From IMG/VR virus record IMGVR_UViG_3300025141_015366, positions 1-50,597 of that record: a DNA stretch of 50,597 bases; one strand, given 5' to 3'. The notes beneath the pieces were generated by a model that had not been told where the DNA came from, did not search any database, and worked only from the letters and a program-made list of their open reading frames with translations. The translations under genes were made by a program, and so were the position numbers. Shown one piece after another: positions 8,987 to 50,597 of the stretch (position 1 is its first letter; every line of letters begins with the position of its first letter). Origin of the DNA: a virus.

Positions 8987-8993
8987 GAAGTAA

Positions 8994-15345: not shown

Positions 15346-18300
15346 ATGCCATATACAAAACAACAACTATTAAGCAACGCTGAAGCACAGATAAATTATC
15401 ACCGCCGCCCTGTAAACTGGGAAGGTTCTTCCGCTACACACTGGGTATCGATTTCTATCGCCGAGCTGCCAGATGATACCCTGTTCGATTACACAGAGAA
15501 CGAGGAATTGATTTCGTTGGGGGAGTCGTGTCCTCCTTTATATTCAGAATTACCGTATAGGCCTGGAGCAGAAATTATTAGTGGCCTTAACCACAAAACT
15601 CTTATTGTTGTTGAAGAGGAGCGAGTGGGCCGAGGAGGTGAGTGGCATTTTGTTTCTGTGGTTGACACAAATTCAGATGTTAATGGGCTTGTGGGGTATA
15701 TTTCTCGAAGTGCCACTACTACTTTTGGCCTTCCCACCCCCGAATCAAACGATATGGTGTTCGACACCTGTATCGAAACTGTTGCTACAAAGATTGATAG
15801 TTTTTGTAGCCTGACCTCCCCTCAGTGGTACGAGACATCCGAGCCCTATTTTGATTCTACCTCCTGTGAATACTTTGTTTCGATAACAACCACACATGGT
15901 GAAACGGGTGGAGATGCCCTTCAATCAAGGATGGATGATCAAATCCCTATTGGCGTCAAGGCCCTTTTGGAGTATTACGGAAAACCAAGCAAAGATTCGA
16001 CGATAAATCGACTATTGAATAGATTTAAGTTCGCCAAGGCATCAAGCTGGTGGATGGACCCAGCGTCTAGCGATTCACGACTAAAGGTTCTTGTTTCAGT
16101 TCACGCAAAATACTTTGATGCAATAGCGGAAGAAGAATTTGATGTTCCATCATCGGCAAAGAATATTTTTATTCAGGCTAGAACTTTCGAAATGCAAATA
16201 AATGCAATAACTGACCTTTTTAAGAGGTACGCGAAGTCCTATACCTGGAAGAGCCAGCCCGGATCATGGGCGGGACCCGCACCAGAATATGGGACGTTTG
16301 ATCTCAATCAGGAAGCAACAAATTTACAACTCTTTTTATCAAACTTCAAAAGACTATTGACGTTGAATGCCCTGGCCTTAAACCCAGATTCCAATGATAG
16401 CTATGAAATTGCAGTCGATGAAGAGTTTAATATAAGATACATATTGGCCAATAGTACAAGTTTGGGGCCAAAGTATCTTACGGTTGGGATGTCCACGCTG
16501 ATAAACACTAACCCATTTAACTATCCAAGGACTGTGTCGTATGTTTCAAATTTATCAGAAATGTATAATCAGGTTAAGAAAAGTAAGGAACTTCCGCGGG
16601 GCTGGAAACAATTAATAAATGATTATACCACTCCAAAACCAACGTGGACGAAAAAATCAAAAAAGTGTGACCCCAATAAATTAGATTCTTGGGAATGCGT
16701 TAAGAGTTCTTTTAGTAACAAATTTGGCGACGGCGCATGGGGTGATTTTGAGAAATGGCGCGAGTGGGGTAAGATAGATTTTAAATGTGAATCTATTTCT
16801 CCCGATAAAAGACAGCTTGTGCTTCCGATTGCCAATAATCCAACAGTGTGGAACGCAGTTAAATCTGGGGCATATGATGATTATAAGCTCCCATGGGCCC
16901 CCTTTGTCACAGAAGAGGAAAGAAGCAAGATCTTAACCACAATTGATGCTCAAGACTGGCTAAGGGCGTGGCATCAGCATGGTGGCCCGGATTCGGAATT
17001 CACCGGCGACCCCTGGCAGGGCGACATTAATAAAATTGTTAAGGAGATCATTAGCCCGGGTGTGGGTTCTACGAGAAGCGAAGCACTTGCCAATGCCGCG
17101 TCCGGCGCCCCGCAGGCCGCAGAGGCGACACTTAATCGCCTCTACACCGAAGCTTTATCTAAGATAGATATTAAAGAAAAAATAAGAATTATTGCTGACT
17201 GTATTTGTCATAAACTAGAGGAAAAGGCGATTTGGCTTGAGCACAATGGGCTCGGCGGCGATGATGCCTCTGCCCTTGAGGCCGATATTGTTCGCGCGCA
17301 CGCGGCATTTATAGGCTGTGGCGACATTTGTAAAGTAATACCACTATTGTGTATATGCTTGCCGTTTGAGTGGCCACCGAGATTTACGTTCCCGGATAAG
17401 TTTCCTATAGTTGACTTTTTGGCGTATCTCATGACGCTGTTGTTGAGCGCGATTATTGATTTTATTATCCAGTTTATCGTTCAACTTTTGGTAATGTTGC
17501 TTGATTTTTCGTGGAACTGCGAGACCAAACTTCCACCGGAATTGGCATTTTCTAATACCTTCAAGGGCTCATATGATGAATTTGATGCGCCTGATTTAAA
17601 TAAGAAGTTAAGACAGAACAACTTGCCTGCAAATTCACTTGATCCCGAGATCTTAAATCGGTTGGTAAAAGATACCTCTACGCTCCTAAGAGCCAGGGAA
17701 TTTTGTTCTCTTCTAAGTGGTAATGCTGATCTCCTCACGATGCAGATAACAGAAAAACTAATAACTGAGAATTATCCTGAAGTTCGGGCTCAGTTTTCAA
17801 CCACCTCGCGCGTAAGAAATCTTTATACTATGCTTGGTGAAATGATAGACACCGATATTTGTGAGAATCTTGTTGATTTGATGGATATCACTGAAGAAGA
17901 AGGCGGAAGCTCTATCTGCGAACAGACCAACTTAAGAGAAAACATGCTCGATGATAAGGCCACACCCGATCAGATAAGGGGGCTGCTCGCTGAAGCTGCA
18001 AGGTGTGATGCATCTAAGCTAGAAGGCCTTATTGACCTCGCAAAAAAATCAGCCGGCGGAGAAGACTTTGCGGCAGCGCTAATTCCAGCGATACTCCAAG
18101 ATCCGGCAAACCCCGATGGTATTCTTCCGAGAGAACCACCACCAATTAAATTTTTTAATGATATAGCAAAAGACACTCTTTTCTCACCAATTGAGAAGCG
18201 ATACAATAGGGATTATAATTATCACCCCGAGACGTTGGCACCATATCGACAAGTTGATGGTGAGGGCGTCGATCCGAGTCCCACGAAACTGCTGCTTGAG

Positions 18301-21300: not shown

Positions 21301-23304
21301 TATAAAGAAGCTGGTCTCAAGTTTAACAACTATGTTCTTCCATACACAAGTGAATGGCGCCCCGAAGGTGCGCGAGCCATCGGTGCAACCGGCCTCGCGC
21401 CCGGAGAGTTTTATTATTCGGGACAAACAAGTGCCATGAAGGGCTTGATGGGCCGCCCCCCACGACGGTATCCTCCCTATTCCGATGGTGTGGACGACCC
21501 GGCCACCAATTTTCCCAATGATGGAACAAAGTGGCTGATTGGACCGGATGGGAATCTATACCCTCACAAAGACTGGCCCGGGATAGTTGCTAACCAAGAA
21601 TCTATGAATGCGGACCAGTATGGCGAAACCACCGGGGGCAATCGTGAATATGCCGAGATGGTCGCGCGGATTGTTGATCTTGGATATGACCTTTTTGGAT
21701 TTAATGTGTGGGGGACATTTATACCACCCGGGGAATACGAGTATCCTGGAAATGGCAGTATGGGCATTTTTGTAAAACCCCCCGGCCATCAGGGCGACCG
21801 GAAATGGAGTGCGTTTAATTGGTATAGGCGACCACAGCGAAATAACAAAATTAATGATCGCGCCCACGATGGCAAATGGCATTACACTGAGAGGTCCGGT
21901 GATCGCGGCGAGCCAACTGAATATCCGGGTACCCCGGGATCCCATCCGAACTATAGCCCTCTCTTATCTGGTCTTCAAGTTCCAAAGGGCTCTGCCTTTC
22001 TTGGGAGGTTTGGTAAAAGCCGCGGACCAGCCGCCTCGTTTAGATGCCCCACAGATTCAAAAGCTACAAATTTAGATGAGTGGCCTAATGTTAAATCTTT
22101 TCGGTGGTCTGTCTGCAACGTCACAGCCCCGAACCAGAATAGCTTTGCAGAAGGCGCGATTTATCTTTCTGACTTCTTTGTTAATCATCCCGACTCTCTA
22201 TGCCCTTCTGACGGCGACGCTTGGAAATTGGTGATTGATGATTGGTATAACGACCCCGACATTGCACCAGAGGATTCACCTGCACTTGTAGGTTCACAAG
22301 CCGATATAAATGATTTTTTATATGGCCCCACGCTGCTTGAAACTACTAGCGAGTGGAGATTGCGACACGATGATCCTCTGGTTCCGAACCCCTGGTACGG
22401 AGATTTTGTTCGTGAGATACTCGTCGCGCATCGCGAGGGCCTCGTTAGTTCGACAAATTTCTGGTGGGGTCATAAGTGGATTTATGATTGGATTTCTCAC
22501 GCCTTCAAGGGCCCATTTGAGGAGCTTCTTGAGGAGGGTTTTCCGGAACTGTTGTCAAATACTGGACTTACTCATCCCGAGATAAAAGAAGCAATGGTTG
22601 CGCTTCGTGATTTCATGAAGAAGCAAATGATTGCTCGGGAAGCCGATGGGGAGACCGCACGTTCTCGATGTTGGGCTTTTGACACCGTCGATGATTTCGA
22701 CGATGATCACTATCCCGTAGATGGGAATATAAGACTCGGTACTGAAAATTGTAAAACATATGATAATCTTGTTTTTGCCATTGAGCAGATTGAATATTTT
22801 ATTGGTAAGATTGATGGCGAGTTGCGAATCCCAAGATCTTCTATTCAATTCGATGCCATTCATCAAGAAATGTCTGGCTTATTAAAGAAGCAGATTGTTC
22901 AAGATCCACAGTATGAAGCGGTTCTTGAATATATGATCCCATCAAGCCGACTAATTAGCTTAGCAACTATTTACAACGCTGAGCATATTTCTGGTTTATC
23001 AAATCGGGACATGATGTTTCTGGGGACGAAAGATTTAATAAAAGAACTGTATAACGTTCTGCGGGGGGCGGCAATTCCAGAATGGTGGAACAAAAAAGCA
23101 AAGGACCCAAGAAAGCACTGGTGGCAGGAACCTTTCGAACTAGATATTCCTCTAGGTCTGCTTCTAGTTCCGTGGAAGATTTTGGACGCGATTTTAAGCA
23201 TTATACCATGGTTGAGAGATTTCCTCTCTTTCATAATGCCACCGCTCCCACCGTACAGAGACAAGAAGAGGAGGCGTCCGGGATGTCCAGAACCTCCGCC
23301 CTAA
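15346..23304 (+). CDS. Giant virion structural protein (2652 aa) with hydrophobic core segment
   Basis: One uninterrupted frame of 2652 codons between the spike-like gene and gp25, so most likely a tail or baseplate component. Residues 75-120 have an SH3-like pattern (IISGLNHKTLIVVEEE...GYISR). Residues 686-722 are almost wholly hydrophobic (starting FPIVDFLAYLMTLLLSA), long enough for one or two membrane spans. A Cys-rich stretch lies just before it (CICHK, CGDIC, LLCICL). A second hydrophobic patch is near the C-terminus (about 2602-2640), followed by a basic tail (RDKKRRRPG). The region 2000-2300 is rich in Trp, Pro, Gly and Tyr. I know no family with this layout. It is not a classic tape measure, since long heptad helices are lacking. 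It may enter or span the host membrane. Confidence 0.75.
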   Translation: MPYTKQQLLSNAEAQINYHRRPVNWEGSSATHWVSISIAELPDDTLFDYTENEELISLGESCPPLYSELPYRPGAEIISGLNHKTLIVVEEERVGRGGEWHFVSVVDTNSDVNGLVGYISRSATTTFGLPTPESNDMVFDTCIETVATKIDSFCSLTSPQWYETSEPYFDSTSCEYFVSITTTHGETGGDALQSRMDDQIPIGVKALLEYYGKPSKDSTINRLLNRFKFAKASSWWMDPASSDSRLKVLVSVHAKYFDAIAEEEFDVPSSAKNIFIQARTFEMQINAITDLFKRYAKSYTWKSQPGSWAGPAPEYGTFDLNQEATNLQLFLSNFKRLLTLNALALNPDSNDSYEIAVDEEFNIRYILANSTSLGPKYLTVGMSTLINTNPFNYPRTVSYVSNLSEMYNQVKKSKELPRGWKQLINDYTTPKPTWTKKSKKCDPNKLDSWECVKSSFSNKFGDGAWGDFEKWREWGKIDFKCESISPDKRQLVLPIANNPTVWNAVKSGAYDDYKLPWAPFVTEEERSKILTTIDAQDWLRAWHQHGGPDSEFTGDPWQGDINKIVKEIISPGVGSTRSEALANAASGAPQAAEATLNRLYTEALSKIDIKEKIRIIADCICHKLEEKAIWLEHNGLGGDDASALEADIVRAHAAFIGCGDICKVIPLLCICLPFEWPPRFTFPDKFPIVDFLAYLMTLLLSAIIDFIIQFIVQLLVMLLDFSWNCETKLPPELAFSNTFKGSYDEFDAPDLNKKLRQNNLPANSLDPEILNRLVKDTSTLLRAREFCSLLSGNADLLTMQITEKLITENYPEVRAQFSTTSRVRNLYTMLGEMIDTDICENLVDLMDITEEEGGSSICEQTNLRENMLDDKATPDQIRGLLAEAARCDASKLEGLIDLAKKSAGGEDFAAALIPAILQDPANPDGILPREPPPIKFFNDIAKDTLFSPIEKRYNRDYNYHPETLAPYRQVDGEGVDPSPTKLLLENIIPNANKMDIEIVVAPTEDVDWEQWLSNERDSIFTGSAEQLGQGTTLLALPDRWIWGGGNFYNNPAVAQFTSATDLWKPNNSNISKPGIIPSADTPPDEKEKRTIIYQLCPSAQVGSQWDRILDGYRVEATRPYGPDLVEVYFAFNGEKLLTQKTLAVVTDENFGHSIRGLAPPPAEALNNYLLGKWMLLPRSDHAESREDLEQSENFMDYHMKFLHPELIQYALGTVFDIISEGKFLKGTPSASKELIIEADFSVNPRCNPRPPGLLDVDDLRRRATDYAARSLKFDPERNTEAMIFGLAMTYMKIFLVELLLDSIFVFSQFRLSDIAKSDLLFRYFINRFKERSGVTESNLLTFGGGFVEQIPMFEDIVWRIETDMKSRKYEDDEEFLDPFTGQPVNVILASEKLVSLGLQPTEESFKSLVEGSFFRKRTEASGSVEAMPPCLDPFDPETGECIEVGDVTYSNLSSIDSIDPSTGRRNIGFLEYVIKDQLKSMSGEYETVLDGPTLPPNARPPIKNEIGWLEQLTVLLDVPKSSPVGPGRFFLSVDPAAEVEAFIVNEDTIREVIRDFDLAEVYWAWGVMLAQNTNIHNFVLADVDREGQRFMQAMEFMNPQPPLEETVRVVEELGCSTGAPHLRLQVLRAQVRAAAITGGSGADVVATKVSNIEFAKDYTRGSCDDQQWEDQRWKWNITYDVLTTTYPGSARIETFIANRLGGEGADRMVEAQEVVGSSLSCPAKPFTVKPDFCKAGLRDHGGFILEKFIKITDHSVNEWRMLLGEFEPATRDLVEQKIKNRDSNLFGVVNLKSWNVWLRSLIEFHEELGLFTTIESSGEIYFNIEKYFKKWEVGTRLTFVYPLEDSSDERVALNMDLGTAFTDQMFTEQGAVVAPIQEEEGGGVPMETGTEDFIRKNKSHLLREDLSFTSRVLLENPLDEDERVELEVERGDKFKDVKTLPLISALSEVKSEDINFPALHNNTRQALQACIESIERVFLEPVGKKYKEAGLKFNNYVLPYTSEWRPEGARAIGATGLAPGEFYYSGQTSAMKGLMGRPPRRYPPYSDGVDDPATNFPNDGTKWLIGPDGNLYPHKDWPGIVANQESMNADQYGETTGGNREYAEMVARIVDLGYDLFGFNVWGTFIPPGEYEYPGNGSMGIFVKPPGHQGDRKWSAFNWYRRPQRNNKINDRAHDGKWHYTERSGDRGEPTEYPGTPGSHPNYSPLLSGLQVPKGSAFLGRFGKSRGPAASFRCPTDSKATNLDEWPNVKSFRWSVCNVTAPNQNSFAEGAIYLSDFFVNHPDSLCPSDGDAWKLVIDDWYNDPDIAPEDSPALVGSQADINDFLYGPTLLETTSEWRLRHDDPLVPNPWYGDFVREILVAHREGLVSSTNFWWGHKWIYDWISHAFKGPFEELLEEGFPELLSNTGLTHPEIKEAMVALRDFMKKQMIAREADGETARSRCWAFDTVDDFDDDHYPVDGNIRLGTENCKTYDNLVFAIEQIEYFIGKIDGELRIPRSSIQFDAIHQEMSGLLKKQIVQDPQYEAVLEYMIPSSRLISLATIYNAEHISGLSNRDMMFLGTKDLIKELYNVLRGAAIPEWWNKKAKDPRKHWWQEPFELDIPLGLLLVPWKILDAILSIIPWLRDFLSFIMPPLPPYRDKKRRRPGCPEPPP

Positions 23305-27005: not shown

Positions 27006-30000
27006 ATGAGTATTAAAGATCTTTTTGATGAAAGAGCTGCTTCTAAATTAGTTTCTAAGCAGAGCCTGGATCAAGTTGGCAGAGAAGTAGAATCTGCTGA
27101 TTTTGTTAAGGTTTTTCTAGAAGAACGAGATACTTTCATACCCCAAGTTGACTTTTCAAAGCCTGAAAATTTTGCTATTTTTGGTTCCGCGGAAAAGTAT
27201 TATGAAGACTCAATCACCAGGATTTATAGTCAGTATCCCTATGATGGTTCCAATAAAGAAAAATTACAATGGCAGATAAGTTCTTCTTATATAGATAATC
27301 ATATTTTTGAGAATGATTACCCAAGAACAAATGGGTATGCCTTGTTCTCTCCCTCCGGTTGGGGCACGCCAATTGATTCAAAGGGTGATTATGGTGCACC
27401 AGCAAGCTCATCATATGAATATATTCAATTGGCAGGGGGACCTCACAAGGACCCAACCAACACTCTTTTGTCAAAAATTTACCCTTCTGAAGGCGGTCTT
27501 GCCAACATATATGACTCCTCAGAAAATCGGGAATCCAACCTTAAGCTTGATTTACAGAATAAGGGCGTAACTGTAGAGTTTTGGTTGCAGAAAGATGCAT
27601 TTACTTTTTCTCTACCGTTGGGTGGTCCGAAAACCAACAAAGAGGTTGTTTTTGATCTTTGGAATGGAGAACCTTCCTCAAGTGCCGAATACGGAAGGCT
27701 TACTATCGAAATTTCAGCCTCTAGTGCGCCTGAATCACCTTTCTATGTCACGGCCCAATCGGGGACAGCGGGTTATTTTAATCAACAAATTGGCGCTTCT
27801 ATCGCAGGAACTGGATCACTAACTTCTTGGAAGCACTATGCTTTTAATTTTTTAAGTGCGTCCAATGGCATCGCCACAAAATTTTATGTTAATGGTGACT
27901 TGAATCAAGAAACTACTCTGGGAAGCAGTGGAATAAATGAGATAACTGGATCCCTTAGCGCTAGCATCGGCGCTCTTCGTAGTGCTCCATCTGGAAATAT
28001 TTTTCATGGAATGTCCATGGGCGGCTGGGGGAAACTCTCAGGCTCCGTTGATGAATTCAGATACTGGAAACAACAGAGGACTTCTCAGCAAGTTGGTAGA
28101 TATTGGTTTACTCAGATTGGCGCAGGGACAAATACAGATACGGCAAATACTAATCTTGGTGTTTATTATAAGTTTAACGAGGGAATAACCGGGACATCAT
28201 CAATCGATTCGTCAGTGTTGGATTATTCGGGTCGCATTAGTAATGGAACATGGACCGGCTATAGTTCTGAATCAAGATCTACTGGGTCGGCCATGGTTCT
28301 TGCGTCTGCCGCAACATCTGAGTTTAGAGATCCCATAATTCGTCAACAACACCCAGAGGTTCTTTCGCTGTTAAACACAAAGCGGAACGAGGGCCGCGCA
28401 TATGATTATACAAACAATGCTTCAATCTATAGTTCATTCCCAGCGTGGATAATAGAAGAAGACAACGCCCGCAACGATGATAGTGATCTTCGAAAATTAG
28501 TTCAAATAATGTCAAGTTATCTTGACACGCTGCATCTTCAGATAGAAGCGCTTGCCACATTAAAAGATGTAAGTTATATTTCTGGGAGTATAAATGATTC
28601 CCACAGGCCATCTCCGATTGCTAATAAGTTATTGATTTCTCGTGGGTTTGTTGCCCCTGAAATTTTTACACTAGTAGATGTGTTGGGGTTCTTTTTAAAC
28701 CGCGACGAGGATAGGGAATATGATTTATCGTTAAGCGATATTAAAAATTTCATTTATCAAAACATCAATAACAATTTGGTTGGGATTTATAAGAAGAAGG
28801 GCACTGAACAATCTTTTCGTAATCTTATCAGGTGCTTTGGCATTGATGATGAATTAATAAAGATAAACCTGTATGCGAACAATTACACTTATGCCCTCGA
28901 CGATAATTATAAGGAAATAACAACTAGAAAAACGTTTGTTGATTTTTTTGATTCAAGTCGGTTTTCGGCTACGGTGCATCAATATAAGAACACATTAAAT
29001 CCAAATGCTGTTTCATTTATCAGCGGAAGCCAGGGCGCCCCCAGCAACCTTGAGGCGGGCGTCGGTTTCACCGTGGAAACGGAAATCTTTTTCCCCGACA
29101 AGGGCGAAGAGTACGATGATGCATACAAGACTACCCCCTTCTCAACATCTAGTATATCTGGTATGCACACGGCAGATCCCTCGTTAGCTGAAAATGATTT
29201 AACGTGGGCCACGAGCGACATCGCTAACTTTCAAATATCATCAATTAGAAATGGCATTCAGTCAAAACATGCAAAGTTTAAATTGACTGGCTCTGCCGGG
29301 GGATATCTACCAGAACTAACAAGCAGTATTTTTCAAAATGTTTATAATGATGAGAGATGGCTGCTTGCTTTGAGGCTAAAAAGAAGTAAATATCCTTTTG
29401 TCGGTGCTGTCGAGGGAACAGAAACCGATACTTATACTTTAAATTTTTATGGAATAAATACAAAGTTTAAAGAAGTAACCAACGAGTTTGAACTTACTGG
29501 AAGTTTAACCCTGAGTCAAGGTCTCGATATTCTAAAGAACCCAAAGAGAATATTTGTTGGCGCCCACAGGCAAAACTTCACTGGCAGCGTTCTTACTCAA
29601 TCCGACGTGAAAATTGGAGCTATTCGAGTTTGGTATGATTATCTTTCGAACGATGTTCTCAAGGCACACGCCATAGATCCATTAAATTATGGTTCGGAAG
29701 ATACCTATAAAAAAGCTTATTTGTTTGAAGATAATCTCACAACCACCGATATTAAAAAGATAGAGACATTGGCCTTAAACTGGGATTTTCAAACAGTAAC
29801 TTCTTCGAATGCGAGTGGCCAGTTTAATGTTATAGACTTTTCATCTGGTTCTGTTGGGTCGTCCACAAGGCATGGTTGGATAAGCAATATAGTAAACCTT
29901 CAACACTCAGCGCGCGGGTATGGGTTCGCAGCAGACACTACAAGCTCCGTGGACAATCGTTATGTATATACTTATAAGAAGCAGCTTCCTGAGATTTTAA

Positions 30001-33000
30001 CAAACAACGACACGGTTCAAATCTTAGAGACCGATGATGATGTTTTTACAAGAGACACGAGACCGGTTGATTTTTTCTATGCGGTAGAAAAAAGCTTGTA
30101 TCAGGATATTTCAAAAGAAATGTTGGATATGTTTTCAACGGTTAAAGATTTTAATAATCTTATTGGGGAACCGGTAAACCGCTATAGAGAAGATTACAAA
30201 GATCTTGGGAAATTACGACAACTTTTCTTTGAGAGGGTCAGGAATACTCCTGATTTTGAAAAGTTTGTAGATTTTTATAAATGGTTCGACAATGCGATGA
30301 ACCAGATGATTCTTCAATTGATACCGGCATCAGCAAAGATTTCAGAAAAGTTAAGAAATGTTGTTGAAAGCCATGTTCTTGAGAGAAGTAAATATAAAAC
30401 TAAATTCCCATCTTTCAAGAGCGCCGTCCCGGCTGCGATTGAAGGGGCCGTGATCCCCGATCATGCTCAGAGGGGATGGCGCGCTGAGCGGGAGACACCG
30501 GAGGGGGCCGAAGGCACCGATCCTGATTGGGAATGGATTAACTCAAACCGTAGGGATTATCCAGTTTCATCTGGTGATGCCGTGGTTGACGATCAGCGAG
30601 AAACTTATCACCAGATAGAAGTGAGAGATCGGATCCGGCTTACCAACTTTAATGTCTCGCCCGGTAATCAAGCGGAGGTAGATACTCAAGAAAATCTCAA
30701 CCCGGATCAAGATTCGGTGATGATAAGGGATTTGGATTATGTGAATGAGATAACAATTCCGCCTCTTAAAACAAAGGCTCCGGTTAAGACGGGAATAAAA
30801 GAGGGTCTCACTCAAAAAGTAAAAGTACCATTTGATGTTGCTGGTACTGAGATAAAATCTAGTCGATTGCCCGTTGATGTTTATAGCTCTTCCTATGCTA
30901 ACCCCTACTCTGCGATTGTTGGTAATTATGATTTAATTATTGGCCATCATGAAAGTGCCGCTACAAGGGGTGCGTCACTTCAGGGACCATTCACTGAAAA
31001 GTATGTCGGCGGGCGACAGTATAGACACGTTGGACTTACAACGCCGATTCTTGTTCCTGCTGTGTCAGCCGGCGAGAACACCGCAAATGCTGATTATAAT
31101 CAACCACTGAGCAGCGGCGATAGAACTAGCGAAATAGATGTTACTATCGGGGGTGCCGGTTCGTGGACAGATAGCGGAGGAACGGCAAATTATGATTGGA
31201 TAGTTAATGGTAATCATTTTGGATATGGCTTGTCGGTTAATGGAAGCAGTTATGCCACTGGCTTTTTTCAGTTCGATTTCGCATCGCCCGTTCTTCTCAC
31301 TGAGGTGTCTGGGACGGGAATGTGGAGTCCAGCTACAACGTCTGATGGCGGAACTTGGAAATGGCAAGGATCAGCCAATGCAAGTTCTTGGACAGATATT
31401 GGGTCTACATTTACAGTTTCTGGAACGATGGCATGCCCTACCTGTACGGAGCCAATAGCAGGATTTAGACAATGGTATGATACTGAATTAAATAGTAATA
31501 CTACGGCATATAGATATTATAGAATGCTTGGTGTTTCTGGTCCTGTCAATAGCGCCGCCGGAGGAACCACTGTTACTTGGTGGGAGATGGATTTCAAAAT
31601 TGCCCCCGCGATAGACGCTTCTTATCGTCTTCCGAACCAAACTGAGCGAGAAGAAGGTTTCCGAGTAAATGTTGACGCCTCCGCAGAAAAAGTTTCTTTG
31701 TATTCTTCATACAAGGATGTGGGTGGAAACATTAACTTTAATTTGCCCCGAGCAGTTTATTATCGTGATGAGACAGCGAAGCGACCCCTCAACGTAAGAA
31801 ATATTCAACATACCACAGGGTCAACTGTTCTCGGGAACTACGATAAGCTATATCAAGTTGTTCAAACTTCCAACAGAAGGACAAACAACCAGTGGTGGGT
31901 AAAATATAATAGTTCGGAAGAAGCCACAGCAGAAACTATTTTATATGATTACGATTCGTTTTTAATTGGCTCTGGTACAACCTCCACTTCTATTTCTGGA
32001 GTGCTGGCATATACAAAGCCCATTCGCGGAAGAACTCCTGATGTTTTTGTTGAGAGATCCGCAGCGCCGGGAGGTCCGAACAGTTCCGGAGATGTAAATG
32101 GAGGCCCAGGCCTCGATGCATTATCGGCTGAATATTCTGCATACAGCACTGTAAATTATCGCAATAATTTTGTAAGACGTTTCGGAATAAATGAATGGTC
32201 GAAGGAGCACTCTGCTCAATTTGGTATTGATCCGAATGATCCAACACGTGCGTCTTTCCACAAAACAAACCGAAACCCGATTAAGAAAATGGAGGATAGC
32301 GGCAGCAGCACAATCACTGCTTCCATGTATGATAATTATTTTGTTCAACATCCAATTCCACAAAGTGATTTACAATACGCGTGGATCACCGCGTCAGCGA
32401 TTAGTTCTCCGTTTGGATACTCTGCTGATGCGCGAAGGCTTCCTTCGGGAAGCGAAGTTATTACTTTCCTGAGTGCTAGTGAATATAGAGGATTTTGGGC
32501 CTCGTCGACAACCGCTGATTGGGGGACGGATCCAACATCCCCACTCTATTCTTATTGGTCCACCCTCAACAGGCTTTTATTTACAGATTTTGTCGGGTTA
32601 AATACGGTGATACAAGAGCCAGTTAGTGGCTCACAAAATATTGTTGGATTTGAAAGTTTTATAAAGTATGTATCTCCTGTCGGACTTGATACTGTAAATT
32701 ATTTAAATAGATATTTTATAGCTGGCGAAGACCCGACCTCGTTGTCCTGGGTTCCTGGGGGTATTTCTTCGGTGTTGAATGCTATAAATCTCCACCGCAA
32801 CGGACCTTACGGATACCCGATGTGGAAACAGATCAGAACTGGCCAACATCCCGTAGCGAGAGTATTGAAGGCAGAAAATAAACTTCAATACATTGCGAGA
32901 GCAGCACCGGTTGAAATGAAGGGTGCATATGGATCATATCTTGTCACGCCGGCAAGATCTACTCGAAGAAAAACCTACATTGAGCCAATTGCAACTTCCG

Positions 33001-36000
33001 TGTTCAAACCAATCGTTCACGGTTTAATCATAAAGTGTGATGAGGGTGATGAACTGTTCACTCTCAAGCACTCCTACGGAAATAATATTTCTCACTTTTC
33101 CAATTTGATATTGGATGATAATTTTCTAGATGTTAATGGTGGGATTGTATCGGCAAGGCCAATCCCCAATCAAATCTATGACGATCTTCTTGAATTTTAT
33201 GTCGGAGGATCATTAAAAAATAGTCCAGTTGAATCTTTAATTTATTTAAATTATGCTGAATCAATTTATCCTCGGGCAATAAATCGTTTCCTTGATAGAA
33301 CAAGAAGCAGAACAAACTATGATGTGAAAACGGAGATGAAGTGGAGATCGGCCAGGGTGGACAGGGATGTTGAAGATGCTGTGAATTCGCAAAGATCCGC
33401 GGTCCCACCAGAAAACGAAAGCTGTTGGCCCCTGGATGCGAGAACTCTTTTTGTGGCCGGCCCTTGCTTGGAACTTACACTCGGTGGCGGCACCAAAGCT
33501 GTGAATCAAAACGACGGCTCCGGCGAATTATTAAATCCGTATAGTATTTGGCACTGTGGGAACAAGTCTTCTATTAACCCTGGCGCCCTATATGCGAGGA
33601 GAGAACCAGAGTATGTAACTTCTTCGGTTCCCCCACATCCGGTTACGACTTATGGCGCAGGCGATACACTTTGGGAAACTGCTACTCAATCTGGATATGA
33701 ACCCTTTGACGATACATATGACGATTATTCCGAGTTCATTAGATTGAAGGGGCAAGATTACTCGATAGTCCCAGAGTTTAGAATAAGCGATCATATTGAT
33801 TATTATGTGGAGCAAAATAATAGTGACTTCTTTGGAGCCGACCTTCCAGATGATTGGCTCCGTAACGACGGCGCTGAAGTAAGTTCAAGTGCCGATCCCA
33901 CTGCAACCTTGCCCGAGTCTATTGCCGGTGGAAATAATAAATTTTATAGCCTGTATACTCATTCTGATTTTCTTAGATATTTTAAACAAATCGACGATGA
34001 TCATGAAAAGTATAAAGGAGAACTAGATCATCGGTTGACCCTGGAGTGTAAGTCAATTATAAAGTTTAGGCCGAGGGACGGCTTCTATCCGGCCCAAAGA
34101 ACTTTACAGTTGGCAACTTTGTTTTCTCAATCGTGCGCTTCGGCAGTATCTCTAGGCGGATCGGATGCGTCCTGGAGGTCTGCGTTGGCACCGTTTTATG
34201 CTCCTGGTATAATGTACAATACCATCAAGTCTGGTATCGCTGTTGATTACCCTGTGATTCAAAGTTCATCGGCTGCGTGGTATAGTTATGTCACAGCCAG
34301 CCATGGTAGATATACGTTGGGTGACGACGTTGGGTTTTTTCCTGAAATTTACCAATCGTCAGCGAGAACATATTCATCTTGGCAAGCATTCTCATCTAGT
34401 AAGGTACCTTTTTATTTTATAAGTTCAAGTTTTTCTCATAGGTTACCTTTTGAGAGCATATTAGACCCCGCCGGCTTGTCGAACATCAAGGGTGTTGAGT
34501 GGATAGACAATGAGCCGCATGTTTCTGCATCTTTGTCGAGCAGCGCAACGATAACTGGTGTTTGTGGTGAAGCATATAAGCGCGCAATTGATAATTTTCT
34601 CGCAGAAACAATTAATTTTTATTTGCAAGATAGTGTAATGACTTCTTATAGGTCAGCGCCAGTTGATAGTTCTGGTGTAACACTAGACACTTCGAAAGAA
34701 TATATAATGGATATTGTTCTCACGCGAGATGCTACAACTTTACAATCAGTTTCGTTTACAACAGCAGCATTAAGTTCAAGCGCTCTCACTTCTATTACCG
34801 GTTCACTTTTTAATAAAAGTATTGAAATTTATGAAAGAGAGACCGCGTTCGGACCACCGGTGTTGGAGTTTAGTGGGACGATTGCCGGCGATAACCCGAC
34901 CACCTCTGGAGAATATCATCATCATATTTACGGTTCGTCAGCCCCCTTCACGCCCTCTTATTTTGATGGAAAAGGGAGGGTTAGAATTTCGTACAAACCC
35001 AGCGCCGCTTCTGTAACTTTGAGCGATATAGTTAATAATTCTACGAAAACATATTATCGTGGCGGTGTTTTAACTGGCGGTTTCGCCTATGATAATGCCA
35101 TGCAGATATCAGCTTCTATTAAATTTGATACCGTGCTGAACACTCAAACAGTCACTAGAGATCAGAAGGGCAATATTATTTCCATGACAGAACAACCAGG
35201 GAATCTAGGCTCTCAGTGGGTTATTGAACCGCGCTTCGAGACACCGATTTTAGACTTTTCGGATGTTGAGATAACAGAACCGTCCGCAGGCGCTGGCTCC
35301 ATATCAAAAGGCATTTGGCATCAGTATGGAACACTTCCTCAAGGTTCAGTTACGAACGCTACTGCTAAGGGTGGTTTATTTCTTAATTTAGAATACCCAT
35401 CAGTAGATGTTGTAGATGTGGCAACAACGGCGAGTTTGTTAGCGGCACTCGGTTTCGAGGGAGCAAATGGTGGAGTTCTTTCAAAACGGTTGGGCAACAC
35501 TTCAACCTCTACAATCGTGTCCGAAGCGGTTGTTGCTATACCTTTCTATTCGAAGACTGAGTCTGTAAACAACTTTGATGAATTGCATTTCTTACCGTTG
35601 GTTTCTGAAGGACCACGCATATCCGGCCTCAGCCCTTCTCGATCAGCTGTCTATGAAGCCATGGTAATGATTGCCCTTGAGGGCTCCGATACGCCTACGG
35701 GCCTGGAAGATTATACACCCCAAGCCGCCACGCCCGCAATCATTGACATGGTTAGGAAGATGAATAAATATATTCTGCCTCCAAAGTTTGATTTCTTAAG
35801 GTTCTTCGCGGAAAGAGAACCGCTCGCTATGTATATCTTCGACTTTGAACACGAATTCAATCGGGGTGATCTGACCAACATGTGGCAAAATGTTTCTCCG
35901 CCGTCCGGGAAAGATTTTAAAATAATGACCTCAACCGCTTCGCACATGATAGATCCGGCAGAGCTTGGTGGGGATTTCACAGATAAACTTGGCCAACTTC

Positions 36001-36320
36001 GATGGCTTGTGTTTAAGGTTAAGCAGAAAGCTGAAAAGTTCTATTTGAATAAAACTCTTTCTGCTTTCGACGACCCCAAGGTTGTTAAGGCATTTTCTGC
36101 GCAAAACAAAGCAGATCTTGAAAGGAGAGTGCCGTATAGCTACAACTGGCCTTACGACTATTTTTCTTTGATTGAGCTAATTAAGATTGATGCCGATATT
36201 AATATCGAGGCACCCCGCAGAAAGGGGAAGGGGAAGACTTTGAATATTAAGACATCAGATAGTGGTAAGTCGGCGCAGGCAAGCGACACTTCTTCAAAAA
36301 AAATGGGTTTGTTGGAGTAA
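27006..36320 (+). CDS. Giant tail/baseplate protein (3104 aa) with LamG-like and discoidin-like domains
   Basis: One frame of 3104 codons. Residues ~178-395 have a LamG/concanavalin-like jelly roll (VTVEFWLQK, SLTSWKHYAFNF, KFYVNGDLN, GSVDEFRYWKQQR, LGVYYKFNEG). A helical stretch follows (~470-620). Residues ~685-890 look like a second, diverged LamG-like domain (FTVETEIFFP, KIGAIRVWYDYLS). Residues ~1361-1534 resemble a discoidin/F5-8C domain (FFQFDFASPVLLTEVSG, WKWQGSANASSW, YRYYRMLGVSG). Later parts are Ser and Tyr rich with no known domain, and the end is Lys rich. Both fold types often bind sugars, so it is probably the main host-contact or fibre-like component. It follows the wedge genes directly. 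A gp7- or gp10-like scaffold role at the N-terminus is possible. Confidence 0.7.
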   Translation: MSIKDLFDERAASKLVSKQSLDQVGREVESADFVKVFLEERDTFIPQVDFSKPENFAIFGSAEKYYEDSITRIYSQYPYDGSNKEKLQWQISSSYIDNHIFENDYPRTNGYALFSPSGWGTPIDSKGDYGAPASSSYEYIQLAGGPHKDPTNTLLSKIYPSEGGLANIYDSSENRESNLKLDLQNKGVTVEFWLQKDAFTFSLPLGGPKTNKEVVFDLWNGEPSSSAEYGRLTIEISASSAPESPFYVTAQSGTAGYFNQQIGASIAGTGSLTSWKHYAFNFLSASNGIATKFYVNGDLNQETTLGSSGINEITGSLSASIGALRSAPSGNIFHGMSMGGWGKLSGSVDEFRYWKQQRTSQQVGRYWFTQIGAGTNTDTANTNLGVYYKFNEGITGTSSIDSSVLDYSGRISNGTWTGYSSESRSTGSAMVLASAATSEFRDPIIRQQHPEVLSLLNTKRNEGRAYDYTNNASIYSSFPAWIIEEDNARNDDSDLRKLVQIMSSYLDTLHLQIEALATLKDVSYISGSINDSHRPSPIANKLLISRGFVAPEIFTLVDVLGFFLNRDEDREYDLSLSDIKNFIYQNINNNLVGIYKKKGTEQSFRNLIRCFGIDDELIKINLYANNYTYALDDNYKEITTRKTFVDFFDSSRFSATVHQYKNTLNPNAVSFISGSQGAPSNLEAGVGFTVETEIFFPDKGEEYDDAYKTTPFSTSSISGMHTADPSLAENDLTWATSDIANFQISSIRNGIQSKHAKFKLTGSAGGYLPELTSSIFQNVYNDERWLLALRLKRSKYPFVGAVEGTETDTYTLNFYGINTKFKEVTNEFELTGSLTLSQGLDILKNPKRIFVGAHRQNFTGSVLTQSDVKIGAIRVWYDYLSNDVLKAHAIDPLNYGSEDTYKKAYLFEDNLTTTDIKKIETLALNWDFQTVTSSNASGQFNVIDFSSGSVGSSTRHGWISNIVNLQHSARGYGFAADTTSSVDNRYVYTYKKQLPEILTNNDTVQILETDDDVFTRDTRPVDFFYAVEKSLYQDISKEMLDMFSTVKDFNNLIGEPVNRYREDYKDLGKLRQLFFERVRNTPDFEKFVDFYKWFDNAMNQMILQLIPASAKISEKLRNVVESHVLERSKYKTKFPSFKSAVPAAIEGAVIPDHAQRGWRAERETPEGAEGTDPDWEWINSNRRDYPVSSGDAVVDDQRETYHQIEVRDRIRLTNFNVSPGNQAEVDTQENLNPDQDSVMIRDLDYVNEITIPPLKTKAPVKTGIKEGLTQKVKVPFDVAGTEIKSSRLPVDVYSSSYANPYSAIVGNYDLIIGHHESAATRGASLQGPFTEKYVGGRQYRHVGLTTPILVPAVSAGENTANADYNQPLSSGDRTSEIDVTIGGAGSWTDSGGTANYDWIVNGNHFGYGLSVNGSSYATGFFQFDFASPVLLTEVSGTGMWSPATTSDGGTWKWQGSANASSWTDIGSTFTVSGTMACPTCTEPIAGFRQWYDTELNSNTTAYRYYRMLGVSGPVNSAAGGTTVTWWEMDFKIAPAIDASYRLPNQTEREEGFRVNVDASAEKVSLYSSYKDVGGNINFNLPRAVYYRDETAKRPLNVRNIQHTTGSTVLGNYDKLYQVVQTSNRRTNNQWWVKYNSSEEATAETILYDYDSFLIGSGTTSTSISGVLAYTKPIRGRTPDVFVERSAAPGGPNSSGDVNGGPGLDALSAEYSAYSTVNYRNNFVRRFGINEWSKEHSAQFGIDPNDPTRASFHKTNRNPIKKMEDSGSSTITASMYDNYFVQHPIPQSDLQYAWITASAISSPFGYSADARRLPSGSEVITFLSASEYRGFWASSTTADWGTDPTSPLYSYWSTLNRLLFTDFVGLNTVIQEPVSGSQNIVGFESFIKYVSPVGLDTVNYLNRYFIAGEDPTSLSWVPGGISSVLNAINLHRNGPYGYPMWKQIRTGQHPVARVLKAENKLQYIARAAPVEMKGAYGSYLVTPARSTRRKTYIEPIATSVFKPIVHGLIIKCDEGDELFTLKHSYGNNISHFSNLILDDNFLDVNGGIVSARPIPNQIYDDLLEFYVGGSLKNSPVESLIYLNYAESIYPRAINRFLDRTRSRTNYDVKTEMKWRSARVDRDVEDAVNSQRSAVPPENESCWPLDARTLFVAGPCLELTLGGGTKAVNQNDGSGELLNPYSIWHCGNKSSINPGALYARREPEYVTSSVPPHPVTTYGAGDTLWETATQSGYEPFDDTYDDYSEFIRLKGQDYSIVPEFRISDHIDYYVEQNNSDFFGADLPDDWLRNDGAEVSSSADPTATLPESIAGGNNKFYSLYTHSDFLRYFKQIDDDHEKYKGELDHRLTLECKSIIKFRPRDGFYPAQRTLQLATLFSQSCASAVSLGGSDASWRSALAPFYAPGIMYNTIKSGIAVDYPVIQSSSAAWYSYVTASHGRYTLGDDVGFFPEIYQSSARTYSSWQAFSSSKVPFYFISSSFSHRLPFESILDPAGLSNIKGVEWIDNEPHVSASLSSSATITGVCGEAYKRAIDNFLAETINFYLQDSVMTSYRSAPVDSSGVTLDTSKEYIMDIVLTRDATTLQSVSFTTAALSSSALTSITGSLFNKSIEIYERETAFGPPVLEFSGTIAGDNPTTSGEYHHHIYGSSAPFTPSYFDGKGRVRISYKPSAASVTLSDIVNNSTKTYYRGGVLTGGFAYDNAMQISASIKFDTVLNTQTVTRDQKGNIISMTEQPGNLGSQWVIEPRFETPILDFSDVEITEPSAGAGSISKGIWHQYGTLPQGSVTNATAKGGLFLNLEYPSVDVVDVATTASLLAALGFEGANGGVLSKRLGNTSTSTIVSEAVVAIPFYSKTESVNNFDELHFLPLVSEGPRISGLSPSRSAVYEAMVMIALEGSDTPTGLEDYTPQAATPAIIDMVRKMNKYILPPKFDFLRFFAEREPLAMYIFDFEHEFNRGDLTNMWQNVSPPSGKDFKIMTSTASHMIDPAELGGDFTDKLGQLRWLVFKVKQKAEKFYLNKTLSAFDDPKVVKAFSAQNKADLERRVPYSYNWPYDYFSLIELIKIDADINIEAPRRKGKGKTLNIKTSDSGKSAQASDTSSKKMGLLE

Positions 36321-46078: not shown

Positions 46079-47257
46079 ATGTCTTATTACAAATTTGGAA
46101 AGAATGATTTATTTTATAATACGATCAAGGCTTATCCAAAAGTAAATTTTATAATTTATAGCGGATCCGCGTATTATAATAACAAAAATTATGAATCTGG
46201 TGCCTTTTCTGACCCCGTCTTAAATGTTCCTGATGGCCATATAAGCCTGCATGAACTTAACGTCGATAGAACAAATTTAATTTATCCTTGGATTCCCAAG
46301 GGTTCGGATAGAAATTATTTTAAAAGCGTCACTTCAAGTTCTTTTAACGAGGTTGAGTTTGGTGAGCAGTTGACCGGAAGTTATCCGCTGTCTGCATCTA
46401 TTTCTAGAGATTATATTGTTGCGTCCCCGACAACACCACAACAGATAACCAGTTCTCGCCGCCTGAAAGCTCTTGAAAATACGATTAGTTTTTATAGGAC
46501 CTTAAGCAATCAATTTCAGTATTCTAGCTCTCTTCGAAATTTCGACGATGGCGACATTAATCTTATAAGTGTTCCTTCTATTTTTTATGGTTCATCGATA
46601 AAGAAAGGCTCAATAGATTTAAAGTTTTATGTGTCTGGGACTTTGGTTGGGCAAGCAAAGGATGAGAGGAAAAATGGGGAATTAATACAAGTAGGCCCCA
46701 GTGGTGTTGCGGAATCTGGAAGTGTAATTGGCTTGGCTTTGTATAACGAGGGGTTTTTAATTTTAACAGGATCGCAGGCCTTGAGTGGTACCCACACTGA
46801 GGTTTATCCTCCTGCTCTTTTTCCCGAGAGCCCGAAGTGGACTCACTTTGGAACTTTTGGGTCAGCCCCGGCCCTCGCAGGCTCTTCGAGCTTTTCAATT
46901 GATTTCATGGGAACTACCTATACTTCCGTAGTAACGATGATGGCTCATGCTCCAAGCATCGCCCTGAACCACTCAAACAATCCCACATTTCTTGACAGAT
47001 CATCAGTTGATACTATGTTGCCAACCATTGAAAATTATCAAAATACAACTATAGTTGGAGAAATTACTCATAATATTAAAAACATTGTCAAAAGTCCGTA
47101 TAATGATCCAACAGGGAGTTTTCAGAAGCAAACGTACATTTCAAGAATTGGACTCTATGACGACGATAAAAATCTTATTGCTATTGCCAAGGTGGCAACC
47201 CCTGTTAGAAAAAGAGAAACAGACTCTTATACCTTCAAACTTAAACTTGATATTTAA
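46079..47257 (+). CDS. Virion structural protein, paralogue B
   Basis: A 392-aa protein, last of the structural block. It shares with the preceding protein GLALYNEGFLILTGS, NHSNNPTFLDRS and the terminal TYISRIGLYDDDKNLIAIAK, so the two arose by duplication. The first ~170 residues differ, apart from a common richness in Tyr, Ser and Asn. GGAG at 46068-46071 lies seven bases before ATG 46079. The stop TAA shares one base with the ATG of the resolvase, so structural and replication genes are on one transcript here. The two paralogues may form a mixed ring or fibre; that is inference. Confidence 0.65.
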   Translation: MSYYKFGKNDLFYNTIKAYPKVNFIIYSGSAYYNNKNYESGAFSDPVLNVPDGHISLHELNVDRTNLIYPWIPKGSDRNYFKSVTSSSFNEVEFGEQLTGSYPLSASISRDYIVASPTTPQQITSSRRLKALENTISFYRTLSNQFQYSSSLRNFDDGDINLISVPSIFYGSSIKKGSIDLKFYVSGTLVGQAKDERKNGELIQVGPSGVAESGSVIGLALYNEGFLILTGSQALSGTHTEVYPPALFPESPKWTHFGTFGSAPALAGSSSFSIDFMGTTYTSVVTMMAHAPSIALNHSNNPTFLDRSSVDTMLPTIENYQNTTIVGEITHNIKNIVKSPYNDPTGSFQKQTYISRIGLYDDDKNLIAIAKVATPVRKRETDSYTFKLKLDI

Positions 47258-47796
47258 TGATTTTAGGACTTGATATCTCAACCTCTATTACTGGAATAAC
47301 GGTGATAGACGAAGAGGGAAGTATTATTCTTTGTGAGGCCGTCGATACGAGGAATAAAAATAAATTCCCATCTTTGCTTTCTAAAGCAACGTTCATTAAG
47401 AATAAGCTGTGGGAAATAGAGGATGCGCACTCTATAGACAAGGTTTATATCGAAGAAAGTCTCCAGTCTTTTCGTTCTGGCTTCTCTTCTGCAAAAACAC
47501 TCTCGACATTATCTAAAATAAATGGTATAGTAAGTTATCTCGTTTGGGAGATCTTTGAGATGGAGCCTGAGTTTATTGCCTCGACTTCAGCCAGGAAGCT
47601 CTGCGGGATAAGAGTCCCAAGAGGCACGAAGGCCAAGAAGGTCGTTCTCCAGTTTTTGCTTGACAACGACCCCCAGTTTGGTATAAGATACACAAAGCAA
47701 AATAATCCATCACCCGATTCTTATGATCGGGCTGATTCACTAATAATAGCGAGAGCAGGATTAGAGCTTTGCAGGCAAAAAAACTTAAAATCTTAA
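47257..47796 (+). CDS. RuvC-like Holliday junction resolvase
   Basis: A 179-aa nuclease of the RuvC/RNase H fold that should cut branched DNA during recombination and packaging. The acidic triad is visible: Asp6 in MILGLDISTS, Glu66 or Glu67 in VYIEESL, and Asp157/Asp160 in SYDRADSLIIARAG. The spacing of the three motifs and the total length suit RuvC-type resolvases. In T4 this job is done by the unrelated endonuclease VII (gp49). The gene begins within the TAATG of the last tail gene and overlaps the primase by 28 bases, so it is part of a replication/recombination cluster. Metal-dependent activity is expected from the intact triad. Confidence 0.85.
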   Translation: MILGLDISTSITGITVIDEEGSIILCEAVDTRNKNKFPSLLSKATFIKNKLWEIEDAHSIDKVYIEESLQSFRSGFSSAKTLSTLSKINGIVSYLVWEIFEMEPEFIASTSARKLCGIRVPRGTKAKKVVLQFLLDNDPQFGIRYTKQNNPSPDSYDRADSLIIARAGLELCRQKNLKS

Positions 47797-48707
47797 GAGA
47801 TGTCCTTGGAGAATATAGGAGAGAGAGAAAAGAATTTCTTTTTTACTGCCCCAAGTGCGATCATCACAAGCCAAAACTTTCAGTTAATCTAAGCAACGGG
47901 TGCTTTAAGTGCTGGGTCTGCGATTATTCGGGAAGAAAAATCCGAAGCCTCGTTCGTAAGCACGGCTCATATCTTGATTATAAAGCATGGGGTGAGTTCG
48001 AAGAGCAAGTTGATATTTCAGAATTTGATTTGTTCTTTGATCCATTCAATGAGGTAAAAAAAGAAGAAGTCCTGGAGTTGCCGGAAGAATTTATTTCACT
48101 CGTCAATAGAAATTTACCTCTTTCATCATTACCCGCTCGCCAATATCTAAAAGATCGTGGAGTAACGAAGATGGATATCTGTCGGTGGAAAGTGGGCTTC
48201 TGCGGCAAAGGTGAGTACGAAGGTTACGTTGTTATCCCATCGTTCAATTTGGAGGGAAACGTTAACTTTTTCGTTGCCAGGAGCTATAATGGAGATTGGA
48301 AGAAATATAAAAACCCCAAAGTATCGCGGAACACCATCATATTCGATGAACTCTTCCTGAATTTCCAGGAAGACTTAACTATCGTGGAGGGAGTATTTGA
48401 TGCGATTGTTGTAGGACATAATGCGGTGCCCCTTCTCGGATCAACTCTTTCCGAGAAGTCAAAGCTACTGCATGAAATTATAAAAAATGATACCACGGTT
48501 TATCTTGCTTTAGATTTCGATGCCGAAAAGAAGTCGATGAGAGTTATAAAGAAGCTTCTTGAATATGGCATCGAAGTTTATAAAATCGACACTTCGGAGT
48601 TTGATGATGTCGGAGAGATGAACCGGGAAGAGTTTTTAAAAAGAAAACGAAATGCAACCCTAATGACCGAGGAGGTTTGCCTGTTTCATCAGGCGATGAG
48701 TGTATAA
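47769..48707 (+). CDS. DNA primase, zinc-ribbon plus TOPRIM (T4 gp61-like/DnaG-like)
   Basis: A 312-aa primase that should lay RNA primers for lagging-strand synthesis. The N-terminal zinc finger has YCPKC (Cys27, Cys30) and CFKCWVC (Cys48, Cys51), with LSVNL between them as in the CHC2-type fold. The TOPRIM motifs are TIVEGVFDA (Glu207) and LALDFDAEK (Asp249, Asp251), which bind metal. The start is TTG 47769 with AGGA (47758-47761) upstream; no ATG precedes the zinc finger. There is no helicase domain, so a separate helicase should lie elsewhere. It shares one base with the next gene. T4 gp61 is 342 aa, so the length is similar. Confidence 0.88.
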   Translation: MQAKKLKILRDVLGEYRRERKEFLFYCPKCDHHKPKLSVNLSNGCFKCWVCDYSGRKIRSLVRKHGSYLDYKAWGEFEEQVDISEFDLFFDPFNEVKKEEVLELPEEFISLVNRNLPLSSLPARQYLKDRGVTKMDICRWKVGFCGKGEYEGYVVIPSFNLEGNVNFFVARSYNGDWKKYKNPKVSRNTIIFDELFLNFQEDLTIVEGVFDAIVVGHNAVPLLGSTLSEKSKLLHEIIKNDTTVYLALDFDAEKKSMRVIKKLLEYGIEVYKIDTSEFDDVGEMNREEFLKRKRNATLMTEEVCLFHQAMSV

Positions 48708-50597
48708 TGAAAATAGCACACCTAGCAGACATTCATATTCGCAATCTTAAATATCATACGGAATACAAAGAGGTTTTTAGTCAGCTTTATAAAAAGCTAT
48801 TTGAAGAAAGAGTTGACGCCATTGTTGTGGTCGGGGATGTAGCACATACGAAGACACAACTGAGTCCAGAATACTTTGACATGTGTGCATTGTTTCTGGT
48901 AAACCTTGGTGACATCGCCCCCACGTTTGTAACTTTGGGTAATCACGATGGTAATTTACGGACGATTCATCGACAGGATGCAGTCTCGCCGATAGTAGAG
49001 GCGATAGATGATCCAAACATCAAATTGCTCAAAAACTCAGGTGAATGGGAAGTTGGTGAGGGGGTTATTTTTAATAATCTTTCAATTTTTGATACAGATA
49101 GCTGGGCAAACCCAACGGATCCAGAGAAAATAAATATCGCTCTTTACCATGGATCTGTAAGCGGATGTCAAACAGACGCCGGTTGGGTGATGGAGCACGG
49201 TGAGAATAATATTTCGATCTTCGAAGAGTTTGATTTTGCGATGCTTGGGGACATCCACAAAACAAACCAAATTCTTGACAAAGAAGGGCGGATTAGATAT
49301 TGTGGTTCACTTGTTCAGCAAAATCATGGTGAAACCAATGATAAGGGATTTTTGATTTGGGAGATCGAAGACAAAGATAATTTTAATGTTCGGCACGTTA
49401 AACTTGAAAACCCAAAACCGTTCATTACAATCGAATTAACAAAGAAGGGCAGAATGCCAAGGGGGTTACAAATCCCGGAAGGTTCACGCCTGCGCCTTGT
49501 ATCTAATAACAATCTGCCCCTTAACAGGATGAAGCGGGCAGTTGATGTCGCGAAAACAAAGTTTAAGCCGAGTAGCATTACTTTTCTTAATCGCGCCCTT
49601 GGAGATCGAGCAGACTTAGATGATTTGACGATTAACATTGGAGAGGAAGATCTTCGAGATATTGTGGTGCAGGAAAATCTCATTAAGGAATACTTGCAAG
49701 ATTATGAAGTACCCGGGGATCTATTAAAAAAGATCTATGAACTCAATAGCAAATATAATACAATTGTAGAAGAAAGTGAAGAGATTTCCAGAAATGTTAA
49801 TTGGAAATTAAAATCGCTGGAATGGGATAATTTGTTTAACTATGGTGAAGGAAATTATATTGATTTCGAAAAACTGGTGGGGACAGTTGGAATCTTTGGA
49901 AAGAATTATTCTGGAAAATCCAGTATAATTGATAGCATTCTTTACACGATATTCAACTCAACTTCTAAAAACGAGAGGAAAAATCTAAATGTTATCAATC
50001 AGAACAAAGAATATGGCCAAGGTCAAGCGAAGATAGAGATCGACAATAAAATCTATACGATTACGCGCCAATCTGAAAAGTATATTAAAAAGTTAAAGGG
50101 ATCTGAGACCGTTGAAGCAAAGACTGATTTGGATTTTAAAGTTTATGATCCTGTTTTGGATATTGAAAAAGATTTAAATGGCGTATCGAGAAACGATACC
50201 GACAGGCGCATCCGCAAAATATTTGGAACACTTGAGGATTTTCTCATAACCTCTATGACTTCTCAGCTTGGTGCTTTGCACTTCATTAAAGAGGGTTCCA
50301 CAAAGAGGAAGGAGATTCTTGCTAAGTTCTTGGATCTTGAAATTTTTGAAAGAAAATATAAGATGGCCAAAGACGACGCTGCCGACTTTCGCGGCGCGCT
50401 GAGGAGGCTGGAGGGCAAAGAATTTGGTGAAGAGATAGAAGATGCAAAGTTAAAATTGCAAGAAAACGAAGAGGCCACAGAAGAACAAAAGTATGCTTGT
50501 GATCAAATGAACGCTGCTCTTGGTTTATTCGAGAATCATCTTCAAGAAACTGAAAAGATAATAGAATCAATTCCCACAGAGATTATCGATGTCGTTG
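48707..50597 (+). CDS. Fused SbcD/Mre11-like phosphoesterase and SbcC/Rad50-like ATPase (3' partial)
   Basis: An open frame of 630 codons from ATG 48707 to the right edge, followed base by base with no stop. Residues 1-~330 are a Mre11/SbcD/gp47 phosphoesterase: LADIHIR (Asp8, His10), GDVAHT (Asp44), GNHDG (Asn79, His80), YHGSVSG and GDIHK, all metal ligands present. From about residue 375 a Rad50/SbcC/gp46 ATPase head begins: NYIDFEKLVGTVGIFGKNYS, with Walker A from Gly398 (GKNYSGKSS), later TSMTSQLG (Q-loop region) and RKEILAKFLDLEIFERKY, then the start of a coiled coil. In T4 and in bacteria these are two genes. The ATPase's second half (signature, Walker B) is beyond the edge. It should resect DNA ends for recombination-dependent replication. 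Confidence 0.88.
   Translation, partial: MKIAHLADIHIRNLKYHTEYKEVFSQLYKKLFEERVDAIVVVGDVAHTKTQLSPEYFDMCALFLVNLGDIAPTFVTLGNHDGNLRTIHRQDAVSPIVEAIDDPNIKLLKNSGEWEVGEGVIFNNLSIFDTDSWANPTDPEKINIALYHGSVSGCQTDAGWVMEHGENNISIFEEFDFAMLGDIHKTNQILDKEGRIRYCGSLVQQNHGETNDKGFLIWEIEDKDNFNVRHVKLENPKPFITIELTKKGRMPRGLQIPEGSRLRLVSNNNLPLNRMKRAVDVAKTKFKPSSITFLNRALGDRADLDDLTINIGEEDLRDIVVQENLIKEYLQDYEVPGDLLKKIYELNSKYNTIVEESEEISRNVNWKLKSLEWDNLFNYGEGNYIDFEKLVGTVGIFGKNYSGKSSIIDSILYTIFNSTSKNERKNLNVINQNKEYGQGQAKIEIDNKIYTITRQSEKYIKKLKGSETVEAKTDLDFKVYDPVLDIEKDLNGVSRNDTDRRIRKIFGTLEDFLITSMTSQLGALHFIKEGSTKRKEILAKFLDLEIFERKYKMAKDDAADFRGALRRLEGKEFGEEIEDAKLKLQENEEATEEQKYACDQMNAALGLFENHLQETEKIIESIPTEIIDVV

Follow-up and report, generated by a model that had tools for sequence, protein, structure and literature searches.

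The 3' end of the window, by which we mean the whole stretch of 50,597 nucleotides analysed here, carries the 5' part of an Mre11-Rad50 (SbcD-SbcC) fusion gene (48707..50597; like all features given below, on the plus strand), as indicated by its open frame, by Pfam and PHROGs matches and by a complete homologue, L002, with 97% identity to the window protein. An ATG at 48707 opens a frame that continues without a stop to the contig end at 50597, where the 3' part of the gene is lost, such that 630 of about 1052 codons lie within the window; the probability of 630 stop-free codons arising by chance in random sequence is about 7e-14. Directly upstream of the fusion is a DNA primase-like gene (47769..48707; phrog_47 DNA primase, 6.4e-39), which is itself preceded by a gene for a RuvC-like Holliday junction resolvase (47257..47796; phrog_159, 1.6e-8). 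The stop codon of the primase gene and the start codon of the fusion gene, as read from the sequence, overlap in a TAATG (48705..48709), suggesting that translation of the fusion gene may be coupled to that of the primase gene.

Pfam searches recovered two domains in this one chain, namely Metallophos, a calcineurin-like phosphoesterase (residues 1-152, 6e-11), and the Rad50-type AAA_23 (residues 371-589, 5e-9). PHROGs matches to the window protein are with phrog_100 (SbcD-like; 1-359, 7.5e-28) and phrog_77 (SbcC-like; 209-626, 3.8e-20). The SbcD/Mre11-type phosphoesterase accounts for codons 1 to ~320 of the ORF, and the Rad50/SbcC ATPase half lies C-terminal to a linker. The phosphoesterase contains the full set of Mre11/SbcD metal-ligand and catalytic motifs, with an Asp for His at position 182: motif I (D-I-H, codons 8-10, 48728..48736), motif II (GDVAH, codons 43-47, 48833..48847), motif III (GNHD, codons 78-81, 48938..48949), motif IV (His148, 49148..49150) and motif V (GDIH, codons 181-184, 49247..49258). 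No catalytic residue varies in an alignment of 68 complete homologues, and D8, H10, D44, H47, N79, H80, D81, His148, D182 and H184 are all conserved throughout (each 68/68). The N-terminal ATPase half of Rad50/SbcC with the start of the coiled coil (49802..50597, from the AAA_23 match and the structural model described below) contains the Walker A motif GKNYSGKSS (codons 398-406, 49898..49924), of which G398, K399, N400, S402, G403, K404, S405 and S406 are invariant. An earlier sequence-only reading of this DNA had claimed one uninterrupted frame with five phosphoesterase motifs and a Walker A about 390 codons apart. The frame is indeed open from 48707 to 50597 (48707 modulo 3 being 2), all the motifs are present, and the DxH at codon 8 and the GKNYSGKSS at codon 398 are separated by 390 codons in that same frame.

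GDIH was found at motif V in 167/167 fused ORFs examined. Residue 182 is Asp in the window protein, as against His in T4, E. coli and P. furiosus, and the separate homologues have GHxH in T4, E. coli and herelleviruses. As this Asp replaces a metal-ligand His, the nuclease activity or metal preference of the window protein could differ. We rejected the Asp as a signature of the fusion, given that phage PR1, whose T5-like homologue is a separate protein, has GDLH at this position.

A scan of IMG/VR recovered 392 relatives, the best 80 of which were kept as near loci, and a deeper second scan contributed 80 further best-scoring loci as a distant set; both scans are confined to the best-scoring relatives, and rare two-gene variants may occur at greater distance. 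Both modules are encoded by a single ORF in 80/80 of the nearest viral loci (best 80 of 392). The ORF is closed in 78 of these, with 1049-1089 codons, and runs off the contig end in the other two. By a two-motif screen 79/80 of the distant loci also possess a single ORF, and the last of them, L153, has an ORF of 1052 codons with a Walker A that departs from the screen pattern. Relatives with separate genes at this position, the finding by which the sequence-only reading proposed that its fusion could be overturned, were not encountered: in no case among the 160 viral relatives examined are the Mre11 and Rad50 modules separate neighbouring genes. The Walker B and the end of the gene, which that reading placed to the right of the contig, are found in L002, a complete chain of 1052 aa whose motifs beyond the window comprise the SGAEK signature, the FILDEP Walker B, the SLD D-loop and the SH H-loop. 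The Rad50/SbcC ATPase motif set with its flanked coiled coil is hence distributed between the window (Walker A) and L002 (all others).

The CxxC zinc hook is typical of Rad50 and near-universal. The hook position lies outside the window, and in L002 the hook is CX6C rather than the canonical CxxC. At the same place in the coiled-coil apex, the 68 near homologues have CX6C (57/68), CX7C (4/68) or CxxC-like (7/68) hooks. We class the window protein as Rad50-like, since the absence of a CxxC hook represents a variant. The hook cysteines (residues ~715-740) of L002-L081 alternate between CX6C/CX7C and CxxC within one close family.

Contextual information was gathered from the gene neighborhoods of these relatives. 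The primase gene is directly upstream of the fusion in 57/68 near loci (tblastn screen) and in 76/76 far loci; of the near loci, 60/65 have RuvC upstream, and no RuvC was detected in 69 far loci. The fusion is the sole strong SbcC-type match in each of 14 large relatives with contigs of 145-245 kb, one of which (G010) has one further SbcC-type match, at 8.5e-4. No separate SbcD was recognised in these 14 contigs, which are possibly incomplete genomes; other metallophosphoesterases occur in three of them as small stand-alone ORFs of 220-278 codons. A RecA/UvsX-type gene is present once per contig in all 14. Judging from this gene content, the fusion apparently replaces the two-gene SbcC/SbcD system in the large relatives. 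Another gene of the window codes for a baseplate wedge protein with relatives in Microcystis phage Mel-JY01 and Flavobacterium phage immuto, which identifies the virus as a tailed phage whose baseplate is of the contractile type. No MR gene was seen in the 78-122 kb region read of phage immuto, which is also absent among the matches listed. Elsewhere, the window contains a sugar-modification cluster (6208-9836), in which three nucleotide-sugar epimerase-like genes in a row precede one that is UDP-glucose dehydrogenase-like, and a structural region with very long ORFs of 2652 and 3104 codons (15346-23304 and 27006-36320).

AlphaFold2, run on L002 with 49 homologues, gave a model (mean pLDDT 79.6, pTM 0.49) in which the phosphoesterase is followed by a capping region, two helices (319-333 and 337-357), a short linker, an ATPase half, a long coiled coil and the second ATPase half; given the pTM of 0.49, the relative placement of the domains is unreliable. 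In the window the predicted helix-loop-helix corresponds to codons 319-357 (49661..49777) and the linker between the modules, of about 8 residues, to codons 358-365 (49778..49801), its length being fixed across the 68 homologues. Their position suggests that the helices correspond to the helix-loop-helix through which Mre11 contacts the base of the Rad50 coiled coil. Foldseek searches of the PDB with the model recovered Mre11-Rad50 complexes (7zr1, 3av0, 7yzp) and an Mre11 core (3thn). In BFVD the best full-length matches are the fused proteins of Tupanvirus (A0A6N1NVE8; E 3e-57, 22% identity, 1318 columns), Harvfovirus, Yasminevirus and Catovirus, with those of the phages pT24 and PTm1 close behind.

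In sum, the virus is very probably a large tailed phage of marine origin that encodes here a single-chain Mre11-Rad50 nuclease as the functional substitute for the T4 gp47/gp46 pair. By analogy with T4 gp46/47, its likely role is the ATP-gated resection of DNA ends. We infer its catalysis, stoichiometry, cis docking and gating, and the role of the fusion, as follows. Two fusion chains would dimerise via their Mre11 domains, ATP-bound Rad50 heads and coiled-coil hook, forming an M2R2 machine from two polypeptides instead of four, with the fusion fixing a 1:1 ratio of Mre11 to Rad50. The helix-loop-helix at the Mre11 end would dock on the coiled-coil base in cis, and the short linker that leads into the Rad50 head would hold it beside that head. 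ATP binding would close the Rad50 heads and hydrolysis would expose or reorient the nuclease, which might then clip and resect DNA ends, including hairpins or ends that are blocked, in support of RecA/UvsX-dependent recombination, replication and repair. Altered ATP gating through the fusion is only a possibility; ordinary gating is the simpler expectation, as the helix-loop-helix that couples Mre11 to Rad50 appears to be retained. The neighborhoods also bear on the proposal that the fusion is instead a specialised host-takeover or anti-defence nuclease, involved for example in degrading host DNA rather than in resection. Such a role would accord with the annotated share of T4 gp46/47 in host DNA breakdown and with the fixation of the GDIH metal-site variant in the family, but we consider it improbable, as the primase and RuvC neighbors, and the status of the fusion as the sole recognisable MR system in relatives that carry RecA/UvsX, fit replication and recombination.

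The region where the two modules meet is under purifying selection. Residues 327-399, which span the junction, number exactly 73 in 68/68 aligned complete homologues. Across codons 321-400, variation at third codon positions relative to first and second positions gives ratios of 2.3 and 3.1, pointing to constraint at the protein level. Between the window and L002, 165/197 base differences are at third positions, and the codon changes comprise 168 synonymous and 21 nonsynonymous ones. These data are relevant to the idea that the one frame gives two products, with an internal start or cleavage by a protease releasing separate Mre11 and Rad50 subunits. Some phage proteins undergo processing, and proteolysis is compatible with the data; however, the entire region is conserved as protein, and Met residues close to where the Rad50 module begins are found at codon 340 in just 19/68 homologues, at codon 346 in 4/68 and otherwise as single cases. 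As no Met is conserved in codons 341-371 among the 68 homologues, an internal Rad50 start is unlikely, and we assign the two-product arrangement a low probability overall. The possibility that the single frame is an artefact, two genes having been merged in assembly by an indel at about 49600-49850 or by a stop missed there, can be set aside in view of the continuous frame in 80/80 of the nearest loci, which come from numerous independent metagenomes, the invariant junction length (68/68) with codon-level selection there, and the fused genes of the cultured phages Mel-JY01 and pT24. Since the 80 nearest loci and more distant ones share the single ORF, the fusion is real and no assembly error, and the lost stop that the sequence-only reading had itself named as a danger is excluded. 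The single chain of SbcD/Mre11 and SbcC/Rad50 modules proposed in that reading is supported by the domain matches, the complete homologues, sequence conservation, selection and the predicted fold, and further single-chain phage fusions, for which that reading had proposed a database search, are present in all 80 of the nearest loci and in Mel-JY01 and pT24.

Fusions of Mre11 and Rad50 have been reported from Mimivirus (R555), Bacillus phage 0305phi8-36, bacteria, plasmids and eukaryotes (Yoshida, Claverie and Ogata 2011, PMC3175470). According to the same study, R555 homologues are abundant in aquatic viral metagenomes and probably phage-borne, with the fusion confirmed for few long sequences only; R555 shows motif changes, namely a GDxxH motif II and an Asp at the position of P. 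furiosus His206; and no monophyly of the fused proteins was found (PMC3175470). The window protein shares with R555, whose motifs are as reported there, the Mre11-then-Rad50 order, the short linker, GDxxH and the motif V Asp, and is of the R555 type in having this domain order in one ORF, GDVAH with GDIH, and full-length similarity to the giant-virus fold. It differs in belonging to a tailed phage as opposed to a giant virus, with about 22% identity to the Tupanvirus protein, and L002 is about 300 residues shorter than Mimivirus R555 (1052 vs 1351 aa). Fused genes are also present in cultured phages, i.e. Microcystis phage Mel-JY01 (WWT39521.1) and the Tenacibaculum phages pT24 and PTm1. The domain order of Mel-JY01 and pT24 is that of the window, and Mel-JY01 additionally has the upstream primase gene; its fused protein shows about 27-30% identity to the others aligned with it. 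Both Mel-JY01 and pT24, along with all seven separate systems examined, have a CxxC hook, whereas the near family of the window mostly has CX6C. The huge phages LR756508, in which the gene is interrupted, and LR756501 carry fusions too. In LR756508, a 484-kb uncultured phage (L083:5944-10166), a 305-codon ORF (6665-7579) interrupts the fusion shortly after GDIHK; it contains a TnsA-like endonuclease domain (PF08722) and is probably a homing-type insertion. Rfam recovered no known intron in this gene. A search of plasmids for the fusion returned only weak stand-alone phosphoesterase matches.

The T4 gp47/gp46, T5-like D12/D13, herellevirus SbcD/SbcC and E. coli SbcD/SbcC systems resemble the window protein in domains, motifs and likely function, but are encoded by two separate genes in place of one. 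One or two small genes lie between SbcD and SbcC, at the position of the fusion junction, in T4, P-TIM68 and Staphylococcus phage ESa1 (L179, L183, L184). The contrast with T4 and bacteria drawn in the sequence-only reading is therefore true, but the novelty that it implied is unsupported, because such fusions have been described since 2011 (PMC3175470). The window fusion belongs to the known viral Mre11/Rad50 fusions, which are very common in aquatic phages. When 26 fused systems were placed in a tree with 7 separate ones, all of the fused rows fell on one side (100/99); a single evolutionary origin of the fusion is not claimed, in view of the long branches, the mere 7 separate systems and the lack of monophyly in PMC3175470. 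Two candidate relatives were rejected. The Paenibacillus pair L096/L098, considered as close two-gene relatives, proved to be ordinary distant SbcD/SbcC. The apparent truncated cellular fusion on a WOR-3 MAG chromosome (L091, CP070664.1) shares 63% identity with L002 and breaks off at a stretch of N, beyond which unrelated genes follow; it is likely that a piece of a phage was joined to a bacterial MAG during scaffolding.

In 2011 the fusion was inferred to be mainly a feature of aquatic phages; here it is seen complete, in long tailed-phage contigs and as the sole strong SbcC-type gene. Mildly new are two details, the hook of CX6C type and the fact that the fusion seems to have taken the place of the two-gene system. 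A more ambitious reading, which we put forward tentatively and regard as rather doubtful, is that a large and globally common lineage of RecA-encoding marine myophages possesses Mre11-Rad50 only as one chain, which assembles M2R2 from two polypeptides and combines a CX6C hook and altered tethering with the His-to-Asp change in the metal site. Natural variation at the hook allows the strictness of the zinc-hook rule to be examined, and a single chain of ~1050 residues with a 1:1 ratio would be a convenient construct for structural study of how ATP gates Mre11.
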